Below, piece by piece: positions 12,865 to 27,584 of a DNA stretch of 39,424 nt (its first letter is position 1; every line of letters begins with the position of its first letter). Made by a program: the position numbers and the translations under genes. Under the pieces are notes generated by a model, which saw only the letters and a program-made list of their open reading frames with translations, had not been told where the DNA came from and did no database searches. The stretch is from Cyanobacteria bacterium M_surface_10_m2_119. GTDB taxonomy: Bacteria > Cyanobacteriota > Cyanobacteriia > PCC-6307 > Cyanobiaceae. The DNA lies in contig VGPU01000019.1 of the NCBI GenBank assembly GCA_016882525.1, positions 1 to 39,424 on the forward strand. The letters run 5' to 3'.

Positions 12865-12936
12865 TGGGCGATACTGGAATCGAACCAGTGACTCCTACCG
12901 TGTCAAGGTAGTGCTCTACCTCTGAGCTAATCGCCC
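12865..12936 (-). tRNA. tRNA-Val (anticodon GAC)
   Basis: The minus strand folds into a complete cloverleaf: acceptor GGGCGAT/ATCGCCC, D-arm TAGCTCAGAGGTAGAGCA, anticodon stem CTACC/GGTAG with loop TTGACAC, and T-arm CTGGTTCGATTCCAG. The anticodon GAC decodes Val GUC/GUU. The 3' CCA is not encoded. A T-rich stretch (seven T at 12854-12860 plus three at 12862-12864, minus strand) directly follows and probably ends transcription. Confidence 0.97.
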
Positions 12937-25773: not shown

Positions 25774-26172
25774 TCAGGCCAGGGCTTTGCCGCCGACGCT
25801 GATCGACTGCACCATCACGCGGGTCAGTTCCTGGCGATGGCCGTTCTTGCGCCGGGTCTTTTTCTTCGGGCGCATCTTGTAGACGATCACCTTGGGACCG
25901 CGGCGGTGGGCCAGCACCTTGAGCTCCACCTTGGCGCCGGCCACGTAGGGCTTGCCCAGGGTCGCGGCCTGGCCGTCGTTCACCAGCAGCACGTTCTCCA
26001 GGGTGACCGTGCTGTCAACGTCGGCACTGAGGCGGTCGAGGTCGTAGTAGCGGTTGGGCTGGAGCCAGAACTGCTGGCCTGAGGCCTCAACGATCGCGTA
26101 GGGGCCGCCGGCGCTGGGGACGGCTGGGCTGCTGGCGGCCTTGGCCGTATCGGAACTGGGGGTCTGGGGCAT
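25774..26172 (-). CDS. rplU: Ribosomal protein bL21
   Basis: This large-subunit protein binds 23S rRNA. The product is about 132 residues. The bL21 core runs from YAIVEASGQQFWLQPNRYYDLDRL to KVIVYKMRPKKKTRRKNGHRQELTRVMV. The frame opens at 26205, but those residues lie in the leader. ATG 26172 is preferred, giving a short Ser/Ala-rich extension seen in picocyanobacteria. It is divergent from kaiA with a 160-bp gap that holds a likely promoter. Confidence 0.96.
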   Translation of the reverse strand: MPQTPSSDTAKAASSPAVPSAGGPYAIVEASGQQFWLQPNRYYDLDRLSADVDSTVTLENVLLVNDGQAATLGKPYVAGAKVELKVLAHRRGPKVIVYKMRPKKKTRRKNGHRQELTRVMVQSISVGGKALA

Positions 26173-26256
26173 GGAAGGAGGGCGTGGCCAGGCTGGCGCC
26201 TGCACGGAGTGTCAGGGCCATTGCGGCCTGGCGCACGTTTCGGAAGACAAACATGA

Positions 26257-26286
26257 ATTCTCCCCGTTTGATCTTCCTTTCGTCAA
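26257..26286 (-). promoter_or_regulatory. Possible rplU-rpmA promoter
   Basis: On the minus strand TTGACG (26281-26286) and GAGAAT (26257-26262) are separated by 18 bp. The transcript would have a leader of roughly 80 nt. It overlaps the region upstream of kaiA. Confidence 0.4.
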
Positions 26287-26301
26287 CATTGGCTCAAGCT
26301 T

Positions 26302-26319
26302 CGGCGGGACGTCCCGCCG
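26302..26319. promoter_or_regulatory. 18-bp perfect palindrome upstream of kaiA
   Basis: CGGCGGGACGTCCCGCCG is its own reverse complement and ends 13 nt before the kaiA ATG. As RNA it can form a 7-bp all-GC stem with an ACGT loop; as DNA it could be a dimer-binding site. Confidence 0.6.
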
Positions 26320-26332
26320 CCAGCGGCTCTCC

Positions 26333-27166
26333 ATGCCCGAACCGGCCCTCACCATCCTCTCCCTGATTCACGACTCCACCCTGCGAGGGGCCGTTGGCCA
26401 CTGGCTTGAGGGCCAGGAGCGCTACCGCCTGCAGGTCTGCAACCCGGAAGCGGACCCGGTGGAGGAGCTGGAGCGCCTGCGCGACAGCGGCGATGCCCTC
26501 CTGCTGGAGCAGGGGCTGTGGGTGGAGAAGACAGCCGCGGCCCTGCAGGAGCGCGGTCTGCTGCTGCCCGCCGTGGTGATCGGTGAGGTGCGTGGGCGGG
26601 TCGACTATCACCCCGACGAGGTGCATCTCCCGCCCGATCAGCTCGAGCAGCTCACCTACAGCCTCGATGCGGCGATTTCCCGGTTTCTCAGCCGGGGCCT
26701 GGCCGCCGCCCCCGGCAGCCTGGCCGAGGCGGGTGATGCCGACATGCCGGAGCGCTGGCGCCTCGCCAATCGCCTGCAGGGCCGTCTCGGGCTGTTGGGG
26801 GTCTTCTACAAGCGGGATCCGTCCCGCTTCCTCCGCAATCTCTCCGCCACGGAGGCCGCTGAGTTGGTCGCCTCCCTGGAGCGCACCTACCGCGATCTGC
26901 TCCTCAGCTATTTCCGCAATCCTGCGGCGGCCAACCAGGCCCTGGAAAGCTTCGTGAACACAGCGTTCTTCAGTGATCTTCCAATCACCAAGACGGTTGA
27001 GATTCATGTGAATCTCATTGATTCTTTTTCAAAGCAGCTTAGGCTGGAAGGACTCAAGAGCGAGTTTCTCCAGGACTATCGCCTCGCGCTTCTCGATGTG
27101 ATGGCTCATCTCTGCGAGATGTATCGCCGTTCCATCCCCCCCGATGGTGCCCTGGCTGGGCCTTGA
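26333..27166 (+). CDS. kaiA: Circadian clock protein KaiA
   Basis: KaiA binds the KaiC C-terminal tail and stimulates KaiC autophosphorylation. In the 277-residue product the N-terminal pseudo-receiver-like half (about 1-135) includes LTILSLIHDSTLRGAVGHWL. The C-terminal four-helix dimerisation and KaiC-binding half (about 150-277) contains LLGVFYKRDPSRFL, LERTYRDLLLSYF, INxF-like NTAFFSDLPITKTVEIHVNLID and FSKQLRLEGLKSEFLQDYRLALLDVMAHLCEMYR. The gene is full length, unlike Prochlorococcus, which lacks it. ATG 26333 matches the usual start. kaiB follows 67 nt later. Confidence 0.96.
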   Translation: MPEPALTILSLIHDSTLRGAVGHWLEGQERYRLQVCNPEADPVEELERLRDSGDALLLEQGLWVEKTAAALQERGLLLPAVVIGEVRGRVDYHPDEVHLPPDQLEQLTYSLDAAISRFLSRGLAAAPGSLAEAGDADMPERWRLANRLQGRLGLLGVFYKRDPSRFLRNLSATEAAELVASLERTYRDLLLSYFRNPAAANQALESFVNTAFFSDLPITKTVEIHVNLIDSFSKQLRLEGLKSEFLQDYRLALLDVMAHLCEMYRRSIPPDGALAGP

Positions 27167-27233: not shown

Positions 27234-27584
27234 ATGTCCCCCCGCAAGACCTACATCCTCAAGCTGTACGTCGCTGGAAACACCCCGAATTCCATGCGCG
27301 CTCTCAAGACGCTGCGCAACATCCTGGAGACGGAGTTTCAGGGGGTGTATGCGCTCAAGGTGATCGACGTGCTCAAGAATCCCCAGCTCGCCGAGGAAGA
27401 TAAGATTCTGGCCACTCCGACCCTTGCCAAAATTCTCCCCCCGCCAGTGCGGCGGATCATCGGCGACCTCAGCGACCGTGAGCGTGTGCTGATCGGTCTC
27501 GATCTGCTGTACGACGAACTGGCGGAGGATTCCATGCTGGGAGATGATCAGATGCCAACTGGTCCCGGTCAGCAGCCTGTCTGA
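27234..27584 (+). CDS. kaiB: Circadian clock protein KaiB
   Basis: It is a metamorphic thioredoxin-like protein that binds phosphorylated KaiC and sequesters KaiA. The 116-residue product has the family core: [28 protein letters not shown], then [46 protein letters not shown] Gly/Gln/Pro-rich tail of about 15 residues follows, which resembles the longer cyanobacterial forms. It lies 67 nt after kaiA and 59 nt before kaiC, so all three are likely on one transcript with possible internal promoters. Confidence 0.97.

Follow-up and report, generated by a model that had tools for sequence, protein, structure and literature searches.

A perfect palindrome in a putative kaiA 5′ leader and a conserved rplU promoter beside it

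Results and discussion

Upstream of kaiA in Cyanobacteria bacterium M_surface_10_m2_119 lies a perfect 18 bp palindrome, CGGCGGGACGTCCCGCCG (26302–26319), which we read as specifying a small stem-loop within the 5′ leader of kaiA mRNA, a feature of genus-level depth; we consider this reading about equally likely to be right or wrong. The adjoining predicted promoter of rplU is the firmer of the two features, and the −10 box of kaiA probably overlaps its −35 box on the opposite strand, the whole arrangement spanning 26257–26290. After the leader hairpin in order of probability comes a palindrome that arose by chance, which is a serious rival, and then a DNA operator, which is less likely.

The palindrome and its setting

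The first-pass annotation of the window (the whole stretch of 39 424 nucleotides that was analysed) was correct in placing a fully symmetric sequence here, with 13 nt between it and the start codon of kaiA, an ATG at 26333. The sequence, described there as the strongest palindrome near a gene start, is the sole perfect palindrome of at least 16 bp in the whole window, where the next longest are 14 bp. RNA from the plus strand would form a 7 bp stem with an ACGU loop. The coding sequence of kaiA (26333–27166, plus strand, 277 residues) was matched by the Pfam KaiA domain in a search of the genome itself. It is divergent from rplU, which encodes ribosomal protein L21 (25774–26172, minus strand; the start is uncertain and an ORF opens at 26205), as had been annotated. 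A tblastn match adjoining kaiA (27234–27584, plus strand) is taken to be kaiB. The gene order rplU–kaiA–kaiB appears in a passage of PMC8113500, which mentions rplU as a neighbour once.

For comparison, 96 kaiA loci were reduced to 89 distinct loci by removing repeat rows (L001, L003, L005, L006, L007, L012 and L013). The kaiA ATG is common to all 89, the start of L027 having been shifted by one codon to an ATG. The 13 nt spacer between the palindrome and the ATG (26320–26332, plus strand) contains none of the Shine–Dalgarno-like cores GGAG, GAGG, AGGA and AAGG in a motif scan, in agreement with the earlier annotation. Such cores are almost missing upstream of kaiA in relatives too, with one among the 89 leaders compared with 48 at the 258 ORF starts, themselves uncertain, of the genome sample.

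One palindrome of this length is no more than chance would give in the window. In Markov copies of the window (40 per order), the mean number of palindromes of at least 18 bp was 0.38, 0.50 and 0.58 for orders 1, 2 and 3, respectively, i.e. 0.4–0.6 per window, and a sample of 359 424 bases from this genome (16 stretches of 20 kb plus the window) contained eight, three of which were 22 bp long. Of the other seven, six were inside called ORFs; the caller is crude, and it also assigned the kaiA palindrome to an ORF, opening at 26171, as the kaiA frame continues open in the upstream direction. The existence of the palindrome is therefore unremarkable and only its place could be of note. Its stability is also matched elsewhere: a stem of −14 kcal mol−1 or lower was found in nine of 262 sampled ORF upstream regions and in 2.2% of the 45 nt tiles, 15 960 in all, from the same genome. 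The fold of the kaiA leader in the window gave a shuffle P of 0.06, and 42 of 200 shuffles folded equally well when the flanking codons were included. The palindrome counts and the equally stable stems elsewhere agree with a functionless chance palindrome in a genome of 68% G+C, the hairpins of the genus then reflecting shared ancestry and CGG/CCG-rich sequence. We regard this explanation as possible and as somewhat improbable; the comparisons that bear on it further are described below.

The rplU promoter and a candidate kaiA −10 box

A promoter scan identified a sigma-70-type promoter for rplU on the minus strand, TTGACG-N18-GAGAAT (26286–26257), where shuffles of the region gave a mean of 0.0. 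The −35 box (TTGACG, 26281–26286) and the −10 box (GAGAAT, 26257–26262) are TTGACA-like and TANNNT-like, respectively, stand at the right spacing (18 nt) and are conserved. GTCAA, the complement strand of TTGAC, is found upstream of kaiA at 89 of the 89 distinct loci, at 39–54 nt before the ATG in 82 of them, and the A in the second place and the T in the sixth place of the −10 box are equally invariant (89/89). Where a leader has GTCAA twice, as four do, the presence of this −10 box decided which site was used. Just 3′ of the −10 box is a T-rich conserved block (26243–26254, minus strand) with the consensus TTGTTTGTCTTT; together with excess folding across the genus in the rplU leader (first 45 nt, z of −3.3), it constitutes a possible L21 leader element.

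The pattern TTGAC-N19-GA...T is also kept in genus g18, at 29 of 30 rplU loci, the sequence of the remaining one (L127) ending too near rplU to tell. No match to kaiA was found at any of these 30 loci, and no KaiA domain was found in G029, the one g18 genome searched whole. The plus-strand base A26288, two bases past the rplU −35 box toward kaiA, is present at 89 of 89 kaiA loci (87 of 89 if the last GTCAA is used as the anchor) and at one of 29 g18 loci, a contrast that amounts to a single phylogenetic comparison with an A+T-rich genus. An additional conserved base at this position is what an overlap between a kaiA −10 box and the rplU −35 box would predict, the candidate being CAACAT or AACATT (26284–26290, plus strand). 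All 89 distinct kaiA upstream regions show the arrangement of boxes; the promoter scan gave no −35 box for kaiA.

Judging from these boxes, transcription of kaiA would start near 26296. The boxes are upstream of the palindrome, which is therefore downstream of the likely start, and a start near 26296 would thus place it within a kaiA 5′ leader of ∼37 nt. PMC6091082 quotes a median leader of 52 nt in S. elongatus UTEX 2973 and shorter medians, 27 and 29 nt, in two Prochlorococcus strains. A shared promoter in other cyanobacteria was set aside: a KaiA match was obtained in 53 of 59 genomes of a class sample, and among the loci of the 30 matches from which the orientation of rplU was taken, with ∼1 kb upstream of kaiA viewed, rplU was divergent at just two.

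Stems at the same place within the genus

The genus comparison comprised 13 species genomes including that of the window. In a fixed 45 nt upstream of the ATG, a stem was counted if it had at least 5 bp and an energy of −6 kcal mol−1 or lower. Nine of the 13 leaders contain such a stem, compared with 5.3 expected from shuffles. In eight the stem ends 12–14 nt before the ATG (L002, which is the window, L004, L014, L017, L019, L009, L010 and L016) and in L011 it ends 7 nt before it; no stem qualified in L024, L008, L015 and L023. The summed stem energy of the genus leaders is −117.9, compared with −65.8 ± 14.1 for shuffles, a value reached by none of 1000 shuffles and, with the window left out, by one of 1000. 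This recurrence at one place argues against a chance origin. However, several control stretches also exceed their shuffles, namely the rplU leader mentioned above and two kaiA coding stretches (z of −2.5 and −2.9), whereas no excess is seen for the first 15 kaiA codons (z of 1.3), the third kaiA stretch (z of 1.5) or the kaiB leader (z of −0.6). The excess in the rplU leader and the two kaiA stretches comes from the repetition of one hairpin among related rows, and shared ancestry therefore accounts for part of the leader signal.

A stem at the same place, as expected of a structured leader RNA, was found inside the genus only. Among 41 representatives outside it no clear excess was seen (ten stems compared with 7.6 expected; 30 of 200 shuffles equal), which is compatible with chance. 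A family-wide leader structure was ruled out, with a mean fold z of −0.08 for 89 leaders and −0.16 for 51 representatives; these folds were anchored on the last GTCAA, which is the wrong, second site in two of the 89 (L048 and L095).

The exact sequence is not conserved, again as would be expected by chance. Within its own genome CGGCGGGACGTCCCGCCG has a single occurrence, and no exact copy was found in an even draw of 120 other genomes of the family; one of these (G048) has a match with at most one mismatch. Conservation of the exact palindrome was thereby ruled out. The first-pass annotation had named a lack of symmetry in closely related strains as evidence against its reading, and this is half borne out. 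None of the 12 further genomes of the genus has the exact symmetry, but pairing is often kept through wobble or changed pairs: one stem pair is G–C, G–U and A–U among close relatives, and another changes from G–C to U–A.

The arms have a mean pairwise identity of 0.64, compared with 0.43 for the rest of the leader (Mann–Whitney P of 0.004, uncorrected for base composition; columns without any letter pair were omitted), and are thus more conserved than a chance palindrome would lead one to expect. Pairing was compared with a simulation in which a perfect stem was placed at the root and evolved along the kaiA protein tree, using its topology and branch lengths, for 12 rows, with L023 left out and the partial L014 given the branch length of L004. 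The observed proportion of paired cells, 76%, exceeds the 47 ± 7% that simulated decay at the rate of the flanks gives (0 of 300 runs), a further point against chance. At rates bracketing the divergence of the arms themselves, 63–73% of cells are paired and 7–38% of runs attain the observed proportion, and therefore no pairing is established beyond the conservation of the arms. Covariation of the stem is weak, in keeping with chance: changes on both sides are seen at two of seven pairs, a number that 225 of 500 shuffles reach; 20 of 500 shuffles reach the covariation score and 26 of 500 the paired percentage. The structure slid by +2 columns outscores the actual register (0.207 compared with 0.148), and RNAalifold gave no consensus pair for the 13 genus rows.

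An operator for a dimeric regulator

In principle, a dimeric regulator acting on kaiA, on rplU or on both genes could use the palindrome as its DNA operator; the earlier annotation had also suggested a dimeric regulator. The perfect 18 bp dyad, the conservation of the arms as sequence and the position, between two diverging genes and on the upstream side of the rplU −35 box, are all in keeping with this. The half-sites do not, however, have the fixed spacing of an operator, as the outer span is 17 or 18 bp and the centre is unconserved in the closest relatives, and some of the changes retain G–U pairs only, which breaks the symmetry of the DNA. There are no further copies of the site in the genome at up to one mismatch; a single copy is compatible with an operator that has a single target. 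A search for the PadR family, to which Pex is taken to belong, gave no matches in the genome, whereas the S. elongatus control was matched; the search covered PadR only. With no PadR protein there is no Pex, and Pex-type control of kaiA was ruled out. Thus, the regulator-site proposal finds little support, and we consider an operator improbable.

Proposed role of the leader hairpin

For the preferred leader hairpin, transcription of kaiA would begin near 26296, from a −10 box overlapping the divergent rplU −35 box, and give a leader of ∼37 nt in which the 7 bp stem would start ∼6 nt from the 5′ end and end 13 nt before the ATG. Folded in the cell, such a hairpin, with no Shine–Dalgarno sequence, would most likely set a low, steady rate of translation initiation on kaiA and/or shield the 5′ end from decay; on our best reading, any effect on the KaiA level would be modest. 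The annotated suggestion of a hairpin limiting kaiA translation is therefore plausible in view of the upstream boxes and the same-place stems in eight of 13 genomes, but the exact symmetry on which it was based is confined, within the genus, to the genome of the window.

Leader hairpins and overlapping divergent promoters are both known kinds of element. Stem-loops near the 5′ end stabilize or damp bacterial mRNAs, as in the E. coli ompA type. The kaiA stem resembles these in being short, stable, upstream of the start codon and near the putative 5′ end, and differs in being limited to one genus, with weak covariation, and in being predicted from sequence. Overlapping divergent promoters are a known general arrangement, and the rplU −35 box and the candidate kaiA −10 box would likewise share bases on opposite strands; here the rplU half is well supported by its consensus and its conservation, whereas the kaiA half amounts to one conserved base beyond the −35 box. 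In S. elongatus, Pex is a transcriptional repressor of kaiA according to a passage of PMC5520375, and a reference within that paper concerns a Pex-regulated negative element in the kaiA promoter. The likeness lies in a cis element before kaiA that is proposed to hold KaiA low; the difference is that S. elongatus has a PadR match and the genome of the window does not. No description of the present element was found in the titles, abstract openings and some passages of the kaiA literature, which does not imply its absence from print.

Of the two features, the overlap between kaiA and rplU may deserve the greater interest. It is conceivable, if doubtful, that throughout the Cyanobium/Synechococcus family the kaiA −10 box lies inside the rplU −35 box such that polymerase serves one gene at a time, with the hairpin of this genus as a second brake. 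If this were true, the supply of KaiA would fall as ribosome synthesis rises, and the clock would receive an input from the state of growth. The clock responds to the dose of KaiA relative to that of KaiB and KaiC, and Prochlorococcus, a picocyanobacterium, has lost kaiA. If either the hairpin or the shared promoter sets the KaiA level, it would offer a concrete site for a link between growth and the clock in picocyanobacteria.

Other features of the region

An intrinsic terminator was ruled out, with no G+C-rich stem followed by a T run in 26150–26400. A coding N-terminal extension of KaiA was likewise rejected: the length of the leader does not stay in frame among relatives, and the leader is therefore non-coding. 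No Rfam family was matched at the palindrome, the sole match in the window being a tRNA at 12865–12936. Within kaiA itself there is a 9 bp inverted repeat with a two-base centre, TGAGATTCA-TG-TGAATCTCA (26998–27017). Six loci of another clade (L075, L078, L080, L083, L084 and L089) carry a different, 12 bp palindrome, GGGGAGCTCCCC, whose end likewise lies 13 nt from the kaiA start codon; its centre is variable in sister loci.
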